A stretch of DNA of 64,000 nt, taken from contig JAPPBT010000020.1 in NCBI GenBank assembly GCA_026702745.1, positions 1 to 64,000 on the forward strand. The letters run 5' to 3'. A program made the position numbers and the translations under genes. The DNA is from Gemmatimonadota bacterium. Lineage in GTDB: Bacteria > JAAXHH01. Below the pieces are notes generated by a model, which was not told the DNA's origin, searched no databases, and saw only the letters and a program-made list of their open reading frames with translations. Below are positions 514-12,887 of this stretch, in pieces. Each line of letters starts with the position of its first letter. Positions within the stretch are counted from its first letter, which is position 1.

Positions 514-870
514 TCAGTCCTGGTGGAACACCTCTTCCATCTCCGCCCACCATTCGCCTTCCTTCCGCGTCGGCAGCGGTTCCTGCATGGGCATCATGAT
601 GTCCCACCACTCCTGCGTGACCGGGTCGGCGGCCATCTTCGCCATGTCCGCCTCGAAGTCGTCGCCAACATATTCGAAATAGGAGAAGAGAAAGCCGTCC
701 TTCAGGTAGATGGAGTAGTTTGTAATGTTGCATTCCGTGATCATCTTGGCAACGCCGGGCCAGATCTCGACATGATATTCTTTGTATTCCTCGATCCGTT
801 CGGGCCTGACCTTGAGGACCATGCCGTAGCGCTGGGGCTTGGTTTCCGGTACGGGCCTGTGTGCGGTCAT
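514..870 (-). CDS. rhaM: L-rhamnose mutarotase
   Basis: 118 aa, close to the roughly 105 aa of the RhaM family plus a short N-terminal tail. It interconverts alpha and beta anomers of L-rhamnose in the cytosol. Seen: YGMVLKVRPERIEEY followed by HVEIWPGV (His33, Trp37) and later WWDIMMPMQE; the family places its catalytic Tyr/His and a Trp pair in these segments. Neighbours upstream on the same strand are an aldo/keto reductase and a MocA oxidoreductase, consistent with deoxy-sugar use. A promoter-like sequence lies about 75 bp upstream (947-974). No rhamnose isomerase, kinase or aldolase is in the window, so the pathway is incomplete here. Confidence 0.9.
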   Translation of the reverse strand: MTAHRPVPETKPQRYGMVLKVRPERIEEYKEYHVEIWPGVAKMITECNITNYSIYLKDGFLFSYFEYVGDDFEADMAKMAADPVTQEWWDIMMPMQEPLPTRKEGEWWAEMEEVFHQD

Positions 871-946: not shown

Positions 947-974
947 TTTATATGTTGATGGATATTTCAATCAA
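947..974 (-). promoter_or_regulatory. Candidate sigma70 promoter of rhaM
   Basis: Reading the minus strand, TTGATT (974-969) and TATAAA (952-947) are separated by 16 bp, placing transcription near 940 and giving a 5' leader of about 70 nt before the mutarotase ATG at 870. The surroundings are sharply AT-rich compared with flanking genes. It overlaps the 35-bp element described at 950-984. Confidence 0.55.
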
Positions 975-984
975 TATTGACAAT
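950..984 (+). promoter_or_regulatory. 35-bp element shared with the PfkB-SIS gene upstream region
   Basis: Aligning this stretch with the reverse complement of 11355-11389 gives 30 identical positions of 35. Both contain ATRTTGA-type half sites whose starts are 22 bp (two helical turns) apart, with an AT-rich spacer and a shared ATCAAT core. Two such sites in otherwise GC-rich DNA, each just upstream of a carbohydrate gene, suggest an operator for one regulator. The regulator is not visible in the window. Confidence 0.45.
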
Positions 985-5874: not shown

Positions 5875-6543
5875 ATGGGAGACGACAAGGTAAAGGAATC
5901 GACGGCTGAGGTGTTCGCCACGGTGGCGGAGGTGAACACACTCTTCCATTCATTGGAGGATATGCTGGCAACTCGATTCGAGGCGATCGATGGGAAGTTT
6001 GGGGTCGTCGTAGATAAGCTGGCCGAGATGGACGCCAGGAACGAAGGCAGGTTCGCCGCGATCGATGGCAGGTTCGGGGTCCTCGAGAAAAACCTGGCCG
6101 AGATGGACGCCAGGTACGAAGGCAGATTCGCCGCGATCGATGGGAAGTTTGGGGTCGTCGTAGATAAGCTGGCCGAGATGGACGCCAGGAACGAAGGCAG
6201 GTTCGCCGCGATCGATGGCAGGTTTGGGGTCCTCGAGAAAAACCTGGCCGAGATGGACGCCAGGAACGAAGGCAGATTCGCCGCGATCGATGGCAGGTTT
6301 GGGGTCCTCGAAGAAAAACTGACCGAGATGAACGCCAGGAACGGGGTTCAGTTCGCAGCACTAGAACAAATGATTGTGGAACTGGATACCAAAACCGAGG
6401 GGAAATTCGATCTGGTTGAGCAGAGTTTCAAATCACAGGAACAAAAGATCGAGCATTTCGTGACATCGGCGAACAACAAGTTGATGGCTATATTGCTCGT
6501 GATTGCCGGGTCGATCATTGCCGGCCTGCTTTACGGCGGTTAG
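5875..6543 (+). CDS. Coiled-coil protein with five 25-residue repeats and C-terminal membrane anchor
   Basis: 222 aa. Residues 34-158 are five consecutive 25-residue units beginning RFAAIDGRFGVLEKNLAEM; 25 residues equals 7+7+11, a period compatible with a long continuous coiled coil. Residues about 160-195 continue as a charged helix, and about 200-219 (LMAILLVIAGSIIAGLL) form one transmembrane helix, leaving a tiny tail. There is no signal peptide, so the rod should be cytoplasmic, tail-anchored to the inner membrane. GGGAGG before the ATG supports the start. It resembles generic DUF1640-like or phage-tail-like coiled-coil proteins only in architecture; function unknown. The repeats are nearly identical in DNA. 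Confidence 0.75.
   Translation: MGDDKVKESTAEVFATVAEVNTLFHSLEDMLATRFEAIDGKFGVVVDKLAEMDARNEGRFAAIDGRFGVLEKNLAEMDARYEGRFAAIDGKFGVVVDKLAEMDARNEGRFAAIDGRFGVLEKNLAEMDARNEGRFAAIDGRFGVLEEKLTEMNARNGVQFAALEQMIVELDTKTEGKFDLVEQSFKSQEQKIEHFVTSANNKLMAILLVIAGSIIAGLLYGG
5974..6348. repeat. 75-bp coding tandem repeat, five copies
   Basis: Five in-frame 75-bp units encode the repeated rod of the coiled-coil protein. Units 1/3 share one variant (KFGVVVDKL) and 2/4 another (RFGVLEKNL), which suggests duplication of a 150-bp pair rather than of single units. Confidence 0.9.
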
Positions 6544-6631: not shown

Positions 6632-8500
6632 TTACCCAGGCTCTTCGCGCGCAGTGGCCTGCAGGGCAAACTCCGTCAGTTCAACCGTCATGGGATAACG
6701 GTTGAAGGGCGTGATCAGGTAGAGCCCGTTGAAGTACGCCAGGACGGACTCGATGAGTTCCCGGGCAATGGCGACGCCCTCTCGTCGGGCCTTGCGTCCA
6801 CGGCCCACGCGGGCCATGCGCGCACGCACGTCGTCGGGCACGACGAATCCGGGCACCTCGTTGTGGAGAAACTCCGTGTTGCCGTCGCTGACGAGCGGCA
6901 TGACGCCCGGGAATATGGGTACGCCGGCATCCCGGGTCGCCTCGTAGAGTTGCTTCGCCTGGCGGCGGTCGAAGAGGGGCTGCGTCATGATCATGTCGGC
7001 GCCGGCTTCGACCTTTCTTTCCAGCCTTCTGATCCTTCTGTCCAGGTTAGGTCCGTTGGGGTCGAAGGCCGCTGCGACGGTAAACGCGGTCCTGCCATTC
7101 AGGGTGCGGCCCGAAAACCCCACGCCGTCGTTCATTTGCTTGATCAGACTAATCAGTTCGAAGGACGAAACGTCGTAGACATTGCTCGCTCCCGGCTGAT
7201 CGCCGAACTTGACGGGATCGCCCGTGACGGCGAGGACGTGGTCGATGCCGAGGGCGTGCAGTCCGAGTACCTGGGACTGCAGGCTGGCGAGGTTCCGGTC
7301 CCGGCAGGTGATGTGCAGCAGCGGTCGGATGCCGGCCTCCTCCTTGACGATCTGCCCCACGGCCATGTTGCTGATACGCGTGACGGCAAGAGAATTGTCG
7401 GCCATGGTCAGGGCGTCGGCACCCGCCTTCTTGAGGGCTTGCGCGCCCCGGACGGTAGGTCCGTGATCCAGGTCCCGGGGCGGGTCGAGCTCGACGATGA
7501 CGGCCACCCTTTCCTTGACCAGGTCCACGATCGACGGTTCAACCGCCGGGGGCGGGGGTACGGGACGGGCAGAGCGGGCGGGAGGCGCTGGAACTCGTAC
7601 GTCTACCGGCAGGACCTTCTTGTGCGTGACGATCTCCCGTCCTTCCAGGGCCCGGGCCATGGCTTGCACGTGCTCGGGCAGGGTGCCGCAGCACCCACCG
7701 ATCAACCGCACGCCCTGGTCGCGCAACCGGAGCGCGCTCGTAGCGAAGTACTCCGGCGTCGCCTCGTAGATGAACCGTCCGTCAACGTATACGGGTGAAC
7801 CGGCGTTCGGGAATGCCGAGAGCACCAGCCCCTCCGACAGGGGTACCGGCGCCAGGGCGTCCAGCAGACCCTTGGGACCGCTGCGGCAATTGACCCCCAC
7901 CACGTCGGCGCCGGCCGCGCGAAGCTGATCGAAGGCCTCCACGACCTCGAACCCGTCGTCCGACTGTCCGTGCTGGTCCACCGCGAGCTGGCAGATCGTT
8001 GGCAGGCCGCATATCTCCTGGCAGACCTCAAGCGCCGCCTTGAGTTCGTCGAGCCGGAGAAAGGTCTCCAGGATGATCGCGTCCGCGCCGCCGCCGGCAA
8101 GGGCGGCGATCTGTTCCGCGTGAACCCGCCGGTGGTCCGCTTCGGTGTAATCCCAATGGGGCATACCCCGGGCCGGTCCGACGGCGCCGGCCACATAGGC
8201 GCGGGACCCTGCCGCCTCCCGGGCGATCTCCACACCGCGGGCATTCAAGGTTTCCGCCTGGTCTTCCAGGTTGTATTTCGACAGGGACAGGGCATTGGCC
8301 CCGAAGGTATTGGTTTCGATCAACCCGGCGCCCGCGTCCACGTATTCCTCGTGGATCTTCCGGATCAGGTCGGGCCGGCTCAGGTTGATCTCGTCGAAGC
8401 AGACCTCCATCGGCACGCCGCGGGCGTACAGCATCGTACCACTGGCGCCGTCCGCCACCAGCATGGAAGACTGGAGATGGTCGAGGAGTGATGAGTTCAT
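6632..8500 (-). CDS. Bifunctional homocysteine S-methyltransferase / methylenetetrahydrofolate reductase
   Basis: 622 aa fusion. Residues about 1-290 are a zinc-dependent homocysteine methyltransferase: VADGASGTMLYARG at the start, and the Cys ligands in GVNCRSGP (about 205) and GGCCGT (about 271-272). After a Pro/Ala-rich linker, residues about 335-615 form the FAD-dependent 5,10-methylene-THF reductase barrel (ITCRDRN, AVTGDPVKFGD, MTQPLFD, FPGVMPL). It would make 5-methyl-THF and methylate homocysteine to methionine in the cytosol. The same fusion is known from Bacillus YitJ and Thermotoga-type proteins. No SAM riboswitch is recognisable in the 88-bp gap upstream. Confidence 0.9.
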   Translation of the reverse strand: MNSSLLDHLQSSMLVADGASGTMLYARGVPMEVCFDEINLSRPDLIRKIHEEYVDAGAGLIETNTFGANALSLSKYNLEDQAETLNARGVEIAREAAGSRAYVAGAVGPARGMPHWDYTEADHRRVHAEQIAALAGGGADAIILETFLRLDELKAALEVCQEICGLPTICQLAVDQHGQSDDGFEVVEAFDQLRAAGADVVGVNCRSGPKGLLDALAPVPLSEGLVLSAFPNAGSPVYVDGRFIYEATPEYFATSALRLRDQGVRLIGGCCGTLPEHVQAMARALEGREIVTHKKVLPVDVRVPAPPARSARPVPPPPAVEPSIVDLVKERVAVIVELDPPRDLDHGPTVRGAQALKKAGADALTMADNSLAVTRISNMAVGQIVKEEAGIRPLLHITCRDRNLASLQSQVLGLHALGIDHVLAVTGDPVKFGDQPGASNVYDVSSFELISLIKQMNDGVGFSGRTLNGRTAFTVAAAFDPNGPNLDRRIRRLERKVEAGADMIMTQPLFDRRQAKQLYEATRDAGVPIFPGVMPLVSDGNTEFLHNEVPGFVVPDDVRARMARVGRGRKARREGVAIARELIESVLAYFNGLYLITPFNRYPMTVELTEFALQATAREEPG

Positions 8501-8588: not shown

Positions 8589-9497
8589 TCAACGACCGTT
8601 GCTCAGCGCGTATCGACGGATCGCCCATGCGAAGCCGTTCTCGTGGTTCGGCGGGGCGATGACCAGGCCCTGCGCCCGGCCCGCTTCCTTGACCGCGTCC
8701 TGGGCGTTTTCCATGATCACGCCCAGGCCCGCGTTGAACAGCATGGGCAGGTCGTTGTCGCCGTCCCCGACGGCCATCACGTGATCCATGGATATCCCGT
8801 GCCCGCGCGCGACGAACTCGACGGCGACCTTCTTGTTGACGTCGGCATGCATGGCTTCGATCCGGTCCGGGTTCGTCTTGACGAGATAAAGGCGGGACGC
8901 GAAACGGTTCTTCAACTCCGCCAGGACTGCCTCGCGCCGGTCCAGGCCGGGCAGGATCAGCATCTTGGGCGGCGACGGATAGTCGCCCTGTCTCAGTCTC
9001 GCCATGAGATCGTCGTCCCGGTCGACGGCGGCGCGGCTTTGCTCCTCGATGGATGCAATGGAAGGGGTGTATTCGTTGGTGATCACGCTGTCCAGGGGAC
9101 CCTTTTCCGTGACGCGCAGCCAGCTGTATACGAAGTTGAATCCGTTTTCTTCGATGAAATCGAGCAGGTCCAGAAAAACGTCCCGTTGAATGCGCTTTTC
9201 GAAGAGCAAGGGCCTTTGTCCATGGCGAACCGGTCCGAGTATGATCCCGCCGTTATTGGCGATGACGTAAAGCCGGTCGAACAACGGCCGCGCATCGCTG
9301 AAGGGCTCGCTGCTTCGGTCGATGTTGCGGCCGCTCACGGAACTTACGACCAATCCCTGGTCGAGGGCGGCTTCGATGGCGCCCAGTCCCTCGGGGGAGG
9401 GTTTCCCGTCGGACCGCAGCGCCGTGTCGTCCTGGTCGAAGGCGATCAGCTTGATTTCTGGAGTGTCGTCGCTGGCTTTCAGTACTTCGGCGGTCAT
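8589..9497 (-). CDS. HAD superfamily sugar phosphatase, Cof subfamily
   Basis: 302 aa cytosolic phosphatase. Seen: nucleophile motif I as FDQDDTALR (Asp, with Gln replacing the usual Leu/Met), motif II in VVSSVSGRN, and motif IV in MAVGDGDNDLPML; a roughly 100-residue C2 cap lies between, typical of Cof/YbiV proteins. The ATG at 9497 is chosen because AAAGGA lies about 6 bases before it; an upstream GTG (9533) would overlap the previous gene. It follows the PfkB-SIS gene by 19 bp, so it probably acts on a product of that enzyme. Confidence 0.85.
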   Translation of the reverse strand: MTAEVLKASDDTPEIKLIAFDQDDTALRSDGKPSPEGLGAIEAALDQGLVVSSVSGRNIDRSSEPFSDARPLFDRLYVIANNGGIILGPVRHGQRPLLFEKRIQRDVFLDLLDFIEENGFNFVYSWLRVTEKGPLDSVITNEYTPSIASIEEQSRAAVDRDDDLMARLRQGDYPSPPKMLILPGLDRREAVLAELKNRFASRLYLVKTNPDRIEAMHADVNKKVAVEFVARGHGISMDHVMAVGDGDNDLPMLFNAGLGVIMENAQDAVKEAGRAQGLVIAPPNHENGFAWAIRRYALSNGR

Positions 9498-9516
9498 GGC
9501 GTTCCTTTCCAATCCT

Positions 9517-11292
9517 TCAGGTTTCTGCTTCACTATCCTTCATTCGCTTTCCGAGACTCCCTCCGGGATGGTACCGGGCGAAGTCCTCCCGGGTAAACCC
9601 GCGGCCGGCCTTCAGGGCCATGGCAAGCCCATCGGCCACGGCGAGTTGGCAGGACGTGCTTGCCGTCGGCGCGAGTCCTAAGGGACCGGCCTCGCCCGCC
9701 ACGGGCACGTGCAGGGTCGCTGCGCTCGACCGGGCCAGACTGGATGAAGGATTCCCGGTGATCGCAATGATTGTCGCGCTGTTCGTGGTGAGGGTTCGCA
9801 CGGCAGCCATCAGTTCCTCCGTCTCCCCGCTGTGGGAAAGGGCGATGACGACGTCCCCCTGCGCCACCTGGCCGCTGTCGCCGTGGTTGCAGTCGACCGG
9901 GTCGAGGAAATAGGCCTTCGTGCCGGTACTCTGCAGCGTGGCCGCCAGCTTGCGGCCAATATGGCGGGATTTCCCAACGCCGGTGACGTGTACGCGGCCT
10001 CCCGCTGCTTCCGACTTCCGTATGACGGAGATGGCTTCGTCGAAGTAAGCGCCGGACATGCCTTCATGCAGCGTGGATAGCGCCTCGGCGGTCCGCCGCA
10101 CCGCGTCCAGTCCGGCCGCGCCGGGGGATGCCGCGCCGGGGGATGCCGCGCCGGAGGATGCCGCGCCGGGGAATGCCGCGCCGGGGAATGCCGCGCCGGG
10201 GGATGCCGCGCCCTGAGCGGTCTCGTCCGAATCGTCTGCGTCCACTTTCACTGTTGCCGTTTCCGAGGCGGTCACGGTTTCAGCCGGGTTCCGGACCGGG
10301 ATCCGAGCGCCTTCGTACAGGGCCATCACGTCGTCCCGGCTCGATCCCAGTCGCGGGAAAGCCCCAGGGATGCGGCAACACACGGCGCCGCAGGCATTGG
10401 CGAGCGACGCGGTATCCCGCAGGGAAAGTCCGTGGAAGAGTCCCGCGATCAGTCCGCCCAGGAAGGCATCCCCGGCGCCGGTGGTGTCCCGGGCCTCCAC
10501 GGGATTCGCCGGCGCGCGGAGCGTCTCCATCCCGTCGGTGACGACCGAGCCCTGCGCCCCTTCGGTGATGGCCACCAGGCGGGCGCCGTACCGGCCGAAA
10601 ATTCCCTCGGCCCGTTTTTCGGAAGTGTCGGCTGCCACCATCTGCAAGGCGGCGGCCTTGGCGGGTTTCACGATGTCGGCGAGACGCAGGGCTTCCTCGA
10701 AATCTTCAGCCGATCCGAGTCCGGCCACCTGGATGGCGAAATCCGGGGGGACATCCACGTCCAGCACGGTGGGCACGCCGGCCTCCCAGGCAATGCGCAG
10801 CACGGCGATGACGGCGTCCAGCGGGAGTTGGGATATCTCTGTCGTCACCATGGCAGCCGACCTTATGTAGTCGGCGAAATGCGTCTCCACGTGCGCGGCC
10901 GTGGTCTCCGCCGTCAGGGCACGGGCCATGTAGATCGCACGGTCCGCGTCTTCGGCCACGTTCACCACCGAAAAGCCCGATGCGCGGTCCTCGAGGACCC
11001 GAACGGCCGACCGGTCGATGCCGTGACGGTCCATCTCGTCTCGGATCATCGCGCCGTACCGGTCGTCGCCCTGGTATCCGAAGAGCCCGGCGGGGACCCC
11101 CATCTGGGCCGTCCAGGCCAGGTGGTTGAGCGTCACCCCGCCCGTGATCTCGGTCACGACCGAGCCCGCTTCATCCGGCAGGATATAGGTTTTCTCCTCC
11201 GGTCCCGCGATCCGGTTCACCCGGTAGATCACGTCCACCACGTTGCTTCCGATGCCCACTACCCTGCGTGTGCGGTCGATGTCCTGGATCAC
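9517..11292 (-). CDS. PfkB carbohydrate kinase fused to SIS sugar-phosphate isomerase domain
   Basis: 591 aa. Residues about 1-335 are a ribokinase-type PfkB kinase (GGVTLNHLAW in the substrate half, signature DTTGAGDAFLGGL with the catalytic Asp near 270). Residues about 345-393 are a Gly-Ala-Ser-Pro linker encoded by a 15-bp tandem repeat. Residues about 395-591 are a KpsF/GutQ-type SIS domain (VTGVGKSRHIGRKLA, ALSHSGETEEL, final GGSLGKRM) without the CBS pair usually found in D-arabinose-5-phosphate isomerases. GTG start after AAGGTGG. A Cof phosphatase follows. A kinase, isomerase and phosphatase in a row suggest conversion of one sugar phosphate; the substrate is unknown. Confidence 0.85.
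   Translation of the reverse strand: MIQDIDRTRRVVGIGSNVVDVIYRVNRIAGPEEKTYILPDEAGSVVTEITGGVTLNHLAWTAQMGVPAGLFGYQGDDRYGAMIRDEMDRHGIDRSAVRVLEDRASGFSVVNVAEDADRAIYMARALTAETTAAHVETHFADYIRSAAMVTTEISQLPLDAVIAVLRIAWEAGVPTVLDVDVPPDFAIQVAGLGSAEDFEEALRLADIVKPAKAAALQMVAADTSEKRAEGIFGRYGARLVAITEGAQGSVVTDGMETLRAPANPVEARDTTGAGDAFLGGLIAGLFHGLSLRDTASLANACGAVCCRIPGAFPRLGSSRDDVMALYEGARIPVRNPAETVTASETATVKVDADDSDETAQGAASPGAAFPGAAFPGAASSGAASPGAASPGAAGLDAVRRTAEALSTLHEGMSGAYFDEAISVIRKSEAAGGRVHVTGVGKSRHIGRKLAATLQSTGTKAYFLDPVDCNHGDSGQVAQGDVVIALSHSGETEELMAAVRTLTTNSATIIAITGNPSSSLARSSAATLHVPVAGEAGPLGLAPTASTSCQLAVADGLAMALKAGRGFTREDFARYHPGGSLGKRMKDSEAET
10116..10212. repeat. 15-bp tandem array encoding the kinase-SIS linker
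   Basis: Six full units of ccgcgccgggggatg (minor variants) and a partial seventh, read on the minus strand as repeats of Pro-Gly-Ala-Ala-Phe/Ser. All units keep the reading frame. Confidence 0.9.
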
Positions 11293-11354: not shown

Positions 11355-11389
11355 ATTGTCAACATTGATTAAAATAAGAATCAACATAT
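11355..11389 (-). promoter_or_regulatory. Second copy of the 35-bp element, upstream of the PfkB-SIS gene
   Basis: On the minus strand this reads ATATGTTGAT...ATCAATGTTGACAAT, 30/35 identical to 950-984, with two exact ATGTTGA half sites 22 bp apart. TATAAT follows immediately at 11355-11350, without a convincing -35 at the right distance. An activator bound just upstream of a promoter with a weak -35 would fit. It lies 63 bp from the GTG start at 11292. Confidence 0.45.
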
Positions 11390-12005: not shown

Positions 12006-12887
12006 TCAACCGCTGTTTACCAGGACTACGGCAACCAGGGTCAGGCCGATGCCGACGTAGGCCGGCCCGCGCACCTGTTCTTTCCAGTACAATATAGCCA
12101 CGAGCGTGGTGATGACAAGGCCGACCGCGCTGACGAAGGGAAAGACGACGGTGCCGGGAAGGTACTTGAGCGTGAGGACCAGAAGCCAGGTCCCCGCGAC
12201 GTTACAGGCGCCCAGGAAGACGCTCCACCGCACTTCGGGCAGGCGCGCCTGGATCGGTTTGCTCCAGAGGTAGAAAAGCCCCATGATGCCGGATACGGCG
12301 AAGAGGGTGAAGAGGTAGAGCGGCATCTGGCTCTGGGGCGCGAGTTCGCTGAAGACCTTCGGGGACAGGTGGCAGAACCCCGTCGTGATGAAGAGAGCGC
12401 CGACCAGCCAGGCTACGCCTCGCAGGGACAGTTCGGCCTGTCTTCCCACGCCGATCGTCAGGAGCGGCAGGGCGATGCAAACCGTAACGATGCCCGCGGT
12501 CTGCGTAAGGCTGGGGATCTCGTACCAGATGACGATGGAGCAGAGGATGGGAATGAGGACGGACAGGCGGACGATGGCCAGGGTCACGGCCACCCCGCCC
12601 TGCAGGAGCGCCTGGATCAGAAAGCGGAAGGCAACGAAATAGAAGAACCCGCTGGCCGCGCCGATCACCACGGTGGTCCAGTGCCAGACCCAACCCGGGT
12701 CCGCGAGCATCAACAGGCCGGAGATCACGGCGCCTGCGCCATAGTTGAGGCTGCCCACGGCCAGGGCATTGTGTCCGTTGTGATGGGCGGACTTCAGGAT
12801 CAGGCCGAAGCACGATGTCACGACGGTCGCCGTGATCAACAAAAGGAGTCCGAGCGCCGTAGTCTGTTCTCCGTCCTCAAATAGCAA
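12006..12887 (-). CDS. EamA-like (DMT superfamily) transporter
   Basis: 293 aa with about ten hydrophobic helices in two halves, the arrangement of drug/metabolite transporters of the EamA fold; the second half carries a late LKYLPGTVVFPFVSAVGLV helix as in EamA repeats. It should export or import a small metabolite across the inner membrane; the substrate cannot be told. The only start in frame before the first helix is a TTG at 12887, which sits inside a perfect 14-bp hairpin, so the start is uncertain; another TTG lies in the first helix. It ends 30 bp from the dcd GTG and may be co-transcribed with it. Confidence 0.8.
   Translation of the reverse strand: MLFEDGEQTTALGLLLLITATVVTSCFGLILKSAHHNGHNALAVGSLNYGAGAVISGLLMLADPGWVWHWTTVVIGAASGFFYFVAFRFLIQALLQGGVAVTLAIVRLSVLIPILCSIVIWYEIPSLTQTAGIVTVCIALPLLTIGVGRQAELSLRGVAWLVGALFITTGFCHLSPKVFSELAPQSQMPLYLFTLFAVSGIMGLFYLWSKPIQARLPEVRWSVFLGACNVAGTWLLVLTLKYLPGTVVFPFVSAVGLVITTLVAILYWKEQVRGPAYVGIGLTLVAVVLVNSG

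Follow-up and report, generated by a model that had tools for sequence, protein, structure and literature searches.

In bacteria, the arabinose 5-phosphate that goes into 3-deoxy-D-manno-octulosonate (Kdo), a sugar of the outer membrane, is as far as is known made from ribulose 5-phosphate by stand-alone isomerases, in which a pair of CBS domains is usual but not universal. Here we describe a gene in which an isomerase domain of this type is joined to a sugar kinase of the PfkB family. It lies in a stretch of 64,000 nucleotides, hereafter the window, from a genome deposited as a Gemmatimonadota bacterium (assembly GCA_026702745.1, contig JAPPBT010000020.1, positions 1 to 64,000). Compared with KdsD, KpsF and GutQ (TIGR00393; 2xhz), the product has a similar SIS domain, the same catalytic positions and the YHPGG end motif; it differs in that it has no CBS pair, carries the isomerase behind a kinase, is encoded outside the kds cluster and has an arginine, R443, where all 20 compared stand-alone rows have glycine. 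Our reading, which we favour tentatively, is that the protein is a bifunctional sugar kinase and phosphosugar aldose-ketose isomerase that would stand in for KdsD, feeding arabinose 5-phosphate to KdsA for Kdo in a family of Latescibacterota.

Other described proteins approach each half separately. The structures 5uqi and 3etn, which we take to be naturally CBS-less phosphosugar isomerases, consist of an SIS domain only, are similar in length to the isomerase half and have motifs in common with it, but they stand alone, with no kinase. With PfkB sugar kinases such as ribokinase (4x8f, 6ilr, 1gqt; TIGR02152, TIGR04382) the kinase half shares the PfkB domain, the DTTGAGD motif and the catalytic Asp, but GGVTLN replaces the GGKGAN of ribokinase and the scores fall far under the equivalog cut-offs. 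Precedents for fusion, each with models of its own, are HldE, presumably a PfkB kinase with a nucleotidyltransferase, and HxlAB, presumably a synthase with an SIS isomerase; unlike the present protein, neither combines a PfkB kinase with an SIS isomerase. The original prediction, made from the sequence of the window, knew of no described pathway with the exact layout of kinase, isomerase and phosphatase, and we found no description of such a PfkB–SIS fusion in the literature searched, which left most subscription journals outside its coverage. Both halves thus come from known families; what is new is their union, absent from the literature searched. In a paper on sponge Latescibacterota (PMC12993501) we found no mention of arabinose, rhamnose, fucose, lipopolysaccharide, a sugar kinase or Kdo.

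The fusion gene and its two halves

The gene and its parts are as follows.

9517..11292, minus strand: PfkB–SIS fusion gene, a single open reading frame with a GTG start, 591 aa
10360..11253, minus strand: PfkB kinase domain, residues 14–311 (PF00294, 143.6 bits)
10115..10212, minus strand: 15-bp tandem repeat coding for a Gly-Ala-Ala-Ser/Phe-Pro linker (Tandem Repeats Finder, 6.5 copies, 95% matches)
9541..9999, minus strand: KpsF/KdsD-type SIS domain without CBS (TIGR00393 positions 1–153; alignments to 5uqi and 2xhz)

The predicted presence of a PfkB kinase and a KpsF/GutQ-type SIS domain in one polypeptide was borne out: both domains lie in one uninterrupted frame and exceed their Pfam cut-offs (PfkB, 143.6 against 25.8 bits; SIS, residues 433–558, 83.6 against 25 bits). 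Intact orthologues across genomes show that the fusion is genuine and no assembly accident. Within the 591 residues Pfam finds no CBS domain, and the protein terminates where the SIS domain ends. The isomerase half therefore does lack the CBS pair, as had been noted, but this is not the remarkable trait it was thought to be, since three of the four best solved SIS relatives are themselves too short to hold one (5uqi, 198 aa; 3etn, 220 aa; 3fxa, 201 aa). Similarly, the Gly-Ala-Ser-Pro linker is indeed encoded by a 15-bp tandem repeat, but the repeat is incidental: its length and sequence vary between species, and it is absent from the fusions of a second phylum described below.

The first half has what is expected of a PfkB kinase, namely the domain itself, the DTxGAGD motif and the catalytic Asp (D275). 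Across nine aligned kinases, D20, GGVTLN (51–56), E152 and D275 (in DTTGAGDA) are invariant. The best curated models are the IolC-type 5-dehydro-2-deoxygluconokinase (TIGR04382, 109.8 bits against a cut-off of 300) and ribokinase (TIGR02152), whose equivalog cut-off is likewise missed (104.2 against 299.65 bits); among solved structures, a profile of the nine rows retrieved ribokinases at the top (6.7e-26). A tree of the kinases was considered as a guide to substrate and left unused, as its resolution was poor and its long branches met. We predict a ribokinase-like PfkB sugar kinase, which would phosphorylate a free sugar with ATP, most likely a pentose.

For the second half, the nearest solved structures are those of phosphosugar isomerases, 5uqi (2.3e-37) and the arabinose 5-phosphate isomerase 2xhz (1.6e-34). 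Its best matches are enzymes, not regulators; chains of the regulator MurR appear among the weak ones. The catalytic Lys, Glu, Glu and His of arabinose 5-phosphate isomerases are present as K441, E493, E534 and H575. Together with H470 (in HGD), these align with K59, H88, E111, E152 and H193 of Escherichia coli KdsD and presumably have the roles assigned there. In the alignment to 2xhz, K441 stands opposite an Ala of that chain, and H575 was aligned through 5uqi. One paper (PMC10448790) names two cysteines, which are not among the residues compared here, as likely catalytic in KdsD.

Loss of catalytic residues in either half was looked for in 17 distinct fused sequences from two phyla (25 rows before duplicates were removed), and none was seen. 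All 17 keep D20, GGVTLN, the T-E-I/V-S-Q-L stretch and TGAGDA in the kinase half and K441, H470, E493, E534 and H575 in the SIS half.

Distribution of the fusion

The name Latescibacterota, used here for the phylum and the family, is taken from seven named close relatives, four of which are labelled Candidatus Latescibacterota and three Gemmatimonadetes bacterium. All seven of these metagenome-assembled genomes (77–86% identical in the best segment) carry the full fusion. The complete, uninterrupted gene is present in 14 of 16 genomes of the phylum, 12 of them from one genus and two from other genera of the family. In genome G015 a match to residues 4–168 of the fusion is followed by the end of the contig, and in G014 (83% complete) the fusion was not found.

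Outside the phylum, no fusion was seen among the matches listed in 43 genomes, nor in a further 368. Eight of the latter matched the kinase at 1e-24 or better, in each case within a frame of 300–359 aa. A second phylum does contain it, in three of the six genomes of one family (f168; G384, G386 and G388), where the kinase is 60–64% and the SIS domain 50–54% identical to those of the window. Among 84 genomes of that phylum, matches at 1e-45 were confined to these three and G199, a member of the same family that has the kinase alone (52% identical to the kinase of the fusion). In a third phylum, genomes G296 and G479 encode a kinase 39–40% identical to that of the fusion, and the gene immediately after it contains two tandem SIS regions; Pfam scores only the second region, and TIGR00393 scores both in G296. 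In these two genomes, therefore, the pairing of kinase and SIS domain recurs.

At these loci of kinase and tandem-SIS gene (L087, 7081–9368; L139, 5917–8138), the first half of the tandem gene keeps the His end and has Arg in place of Lys; its second keeps Lys, HGD and SGET, and the His end is missing. A single active site may thus be shared between the two halves.

A tree of 34 SIS rows (10 fused, 20 stand-alone and both SIS regions of G296 and G479) separated the fused rows and the first SIS regions of G296 and G479 from the stand-alone rows and the second regions, with branch support of 100/100. This branch fits a single fusion event, as judged from the sequences; support between the two fused groups was low. 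A 538-aa frame at a KpsF match in G044 was examined as another fusion; read by eye, it was rejected as an isomerase that stands alone beside a KdsC-like gene and whose frame is spuriously extended upstream.

Proposed role in Kdo supply and competing explanations

The genome of the window (G000) encodes KdsA (330 bits, cut-off 314) and KdsB (TIGR00466, 204.7 against 155.2 bits). The order of the cluster was read in genome G005 as kdsB, kdsA, a lipid A acyltransferase-like gene, an LptA/OstA-type gene, an ABC ATPase and an rpoN-like gene, the last two identified by eye.

L039/L040 (G000, contig C73) and L042: kdsB-kdsA-acyltransferase-lptA-like-ABC ATPase-rpoN-like cluster, in which no kdsD or kdsC was seen

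In many bacteria, kdsD and kdsC are placed in such a cluster. Searched with the kpsF model, each of the 14 genomes with the full gene yields the fusion as its sole strong SIS match, and 12 of the 14 have KdsA over its cut-off. Additional kpsF matches in G012 and G013 cover CBS domains only, and a KpsF match in G014 (contig C162) was discarded as an isomerase, as its reading frame encodes a CBS-pair protein only. Among the five outgroup genomes with a completeness of 82% or more, four (G018–G021) have both KdsA and a strong KpsF match and the fifth (G017) has neither. As the only strong KpsF-type SIS protein in the KdsA-bearing genomes of the family, the fusion should, by elimination, supply arabinose 5-phosphate. 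It would then replace the missing stand-alone KdsD and give KdsA this precursor for Kdo. We infer the activity of each half, the substrate pair of the isomerase and the supply of Kdo from sequence.

A number of observations weigh against this assignment. The fusion scores 175.1 bits with the kpsF model, under its cut-off of 203.7, because the C-terminal part of the model is absent (positions 1–153 of 268 are covered). G001 (21.9 bits) and G007 also have weak SIS matches away from the fusion. In two fusion-bearing genomes, G006 and G009, no KdsA was found. KdsA exceeds its cut-off in none of the three fusion genomes of the second phylum: G384 comes just under it (297 bits), and the best scores are 77.9 bits in G386 (92% complete) and 69.1 bits in G388 (95% complete). 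Conversely, G395 (92% complete; KdsA, 396.7 bits) and G014 (KdsA, 308.8 bits, just under the cut-off) have no SIS match to TIGR00393, which indicates that KdsA can exist without a KpsF-type enzyme visible to these searches. The elimination is not tight, because of these two pairs of genomes, G395 and G014 on the one hand and G386 and G388 on the other, and a role in Kdo synthesis alone would not explain the fusion in every genome. All 17 fusions have R443 two residues past the catalytic Lys, as does the first SIS region of G296 and G479, but none of the 20 stand-alone rows or four solved chains has this arginine. The loop on which it stands is one that we take to line the sugar pocket in SIS folds, so this residue is a possible mark of altered substrate and may signal a sugar other than arabinose 5-phosphate. 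Finally, a structure prediction from eight close relatives had a mean predicted local distance difference test score of 50 and was discarded, leaving no usable model.

Other genes considered are as follows.

8589..9497, minus strand: Cof-type HAD-IIB phosphatase, 302 aa from its ATG (PF08282, 123.3 bits)
6632..8500, minus strand: fusion of homocysteine methyltransferase and methylenetetrahydrofolate reductase, the next gene downstream (NF006396, 773.5 bits)
12006..12887, minus strand: EamA-family transporter, upstream of the PfkB–SIS fusion (PF00892, 39.8 bits)
G000, contig C102, 84941–86614 (L082): two tandem Cof-type HAD (HAD-IIB) genes, found also in relatives of the genus, which are other candidates for missing phosphatase steps

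A first alternative, which we consider possible though on balance doubtful, is that the protein is dedicated to salvage or catabolism of another sugar, which the kinase would phosphorylate and the SIS half would then isomerise, with R443 shifting its specificity. In that case arabinose 5-phosphate would not be its product, and these bacteria would make the precursor of Kdo in some other manner. This accounts for R443 being particular to the fusions, for the genomes in which the fusion and KdsA occur apart (G386, G388, G395 and G014), and for G296 and G479, where a related kinase adjoins the tandem-SIS gene; G296, the one searched, has no KdsA over the cut-off. It is also favoured by the EamA transporter gene: G012, G013 and G015 have one upstream, as the window does, and it could possibly import the substrate, although EamA proteins carry many things. 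However, every catalytic position of KdsD is kept, and the KdsA-bearing Latescibacterota genomes offer no other strong KpsF-type candidate.

The Cof gene suggests a second alternative. As originally predicted, it begins 19 bp beyond the stop of the fusion (ATG at 9497), and its translation has the Hydrolase_3 motifs DxD and GDGxND, as FDQDDT and GDGDND; with TIGR00099 it scores 105.2 bits, below the subfamily cut-off of 137. Kinase, isomerase and phosphatase could form a three-step module in one pathway, in which Cof would free a rare sugar or act as a non-orthologous Kdo 8-phosphate phosphatase. Cof adjoins the fusion on the same strand in 14 of 14 family genomes, and KdsC exceeds its cut-off in none of the 16 genomes of the phylum; in the genome of the window the KdsC model (TIGR01670) matches other HAD genes at 28.1 and 25.0 bits, not the Cof gene. 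Yet Cof is beside the fusion at none of the three second-phylum loci (gene lists read by eye), so that the predicted module does not survive as a conserved unit. Absence of KdsC is also common, as 13 of 23 genomes outside the phylum lack it above the cut-off and 10 have it. We judge the module unlikely. The Cof protein could be the Kdo 8-phosphate phosphatase that is missing, but this is a lead only, because at least two further HAD-IIB genes lie on contig C102 of the same genome.

The reading in which the fusion stands in for KdsD can also be put in a more specific form: a free pentose, for example D-arabinose or D-ribulose, would be taken directly into the arabinose 5-phosphate pool, KdsD would have been replaced family-wide, Cof would serve as an unrelated Kdo 8-phosphate phosphatase, and Kdo would derive partly from salvaged sugar. 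In all its parts together we find this improbable. There is a similarly slim chance that one half alone is active, for instance a working kinase with an SIS domain that senses phosphosugars as, presumably, in MurR/RpiR regulators: MurR chains do appear among the weak matches, but the top matches are enzymes and the catalytic residues of both halves are kept in the 17 distinct sequences.

Flanking sequence and significance

Upstream of the fusion lies a short element that recurs elsewhere in the window.

11355..11389, plus strand: 35-bp AT-rich element with a TTGAT-N10-ATCAA dyad, upstream of the fusion, 30/35 identical to 950–984
950..984, minus strand: second copy of the element, upstream of rhaM
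514..870, minus strand: rhaM-family gene, 118 aa (PF05336, 120 bits)
L149, 12850–12884, and loci L143, L144, L146 and L147: further copies of the element

The original prediction had used this shared element to tie the fusion to the rhaM locus. The element itself held up: 300 dinucleotide shuffles of the 35-mer gave at most 24/35 anywhere in the window, and upstream of the fusion in the 12 genomes of the genus it is conserved at 32/35 or better in seven and at 26/35 or better in nine. It was not found in G003, and in G009 and G006 only 159 and 59 upstream bases, respectively, were there to examine. Upstream of rhaM it is present in five of six genomes examined; in the sixth, G001, none was found there, and the copy on the fusion side is worn to 26/35. 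The tie to rhaM did not hold, as a third copy (30/35), in a 400-kb sample of G005, lies between a D-Ala-D-Ala ligase (ddl-type) gene and a tRNA-Gly gene; a gene for an ILVD/EDD dehydratase is 2.5 kb away. With this copy beside a tRNA gene, the element alone does not place the fusion in rhamnose metabolism, and we dropped it as the mark of a sugar regulon. It is a real, dispersed and, from its sequence, regulatory-looking site; TTGAT-N10-ATCAA is perhaps the dyad of a regulator. Folding of the RNA upstream of the fusion gave nothing (z −0.29), and promoter and terminator scans there were at about chance level.

The neighbourhood of rhaM at one locus (L147, 12274–17680) contains genes for an aldo/keto reductase, PhyH, NHL and Amidohydro_2 proteins (the last fuconolactonase-like, 62 bits against a cut-off of 400) and an epimerase, and by appearance resembles an oxidative sugar pathway. 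Nearer to the fusion, a dCTP deaminase gene (Pfam) is also found upstream on the same strand, and the homocysteine methyltransferase/methylenetetrahydrofolate reductase gene is not thought to be part of the functional unit. Beyond the latter, positions 5875–6543 of the window hold a gene in which a 75-bp unit, coding for 25 residues, occurs as five direct repeats; it has no Pfam match.

If our reading is correct, a kinase–isomerase fusion conserved in two phyla would be a new link of sugar salvage to Kdo or to another pathway. In Latescibacterota, it could fill the missing KdsD step, and perhaps that of KdsC. The presence of both activities in one protein would allow the two steps to be assayed directly.

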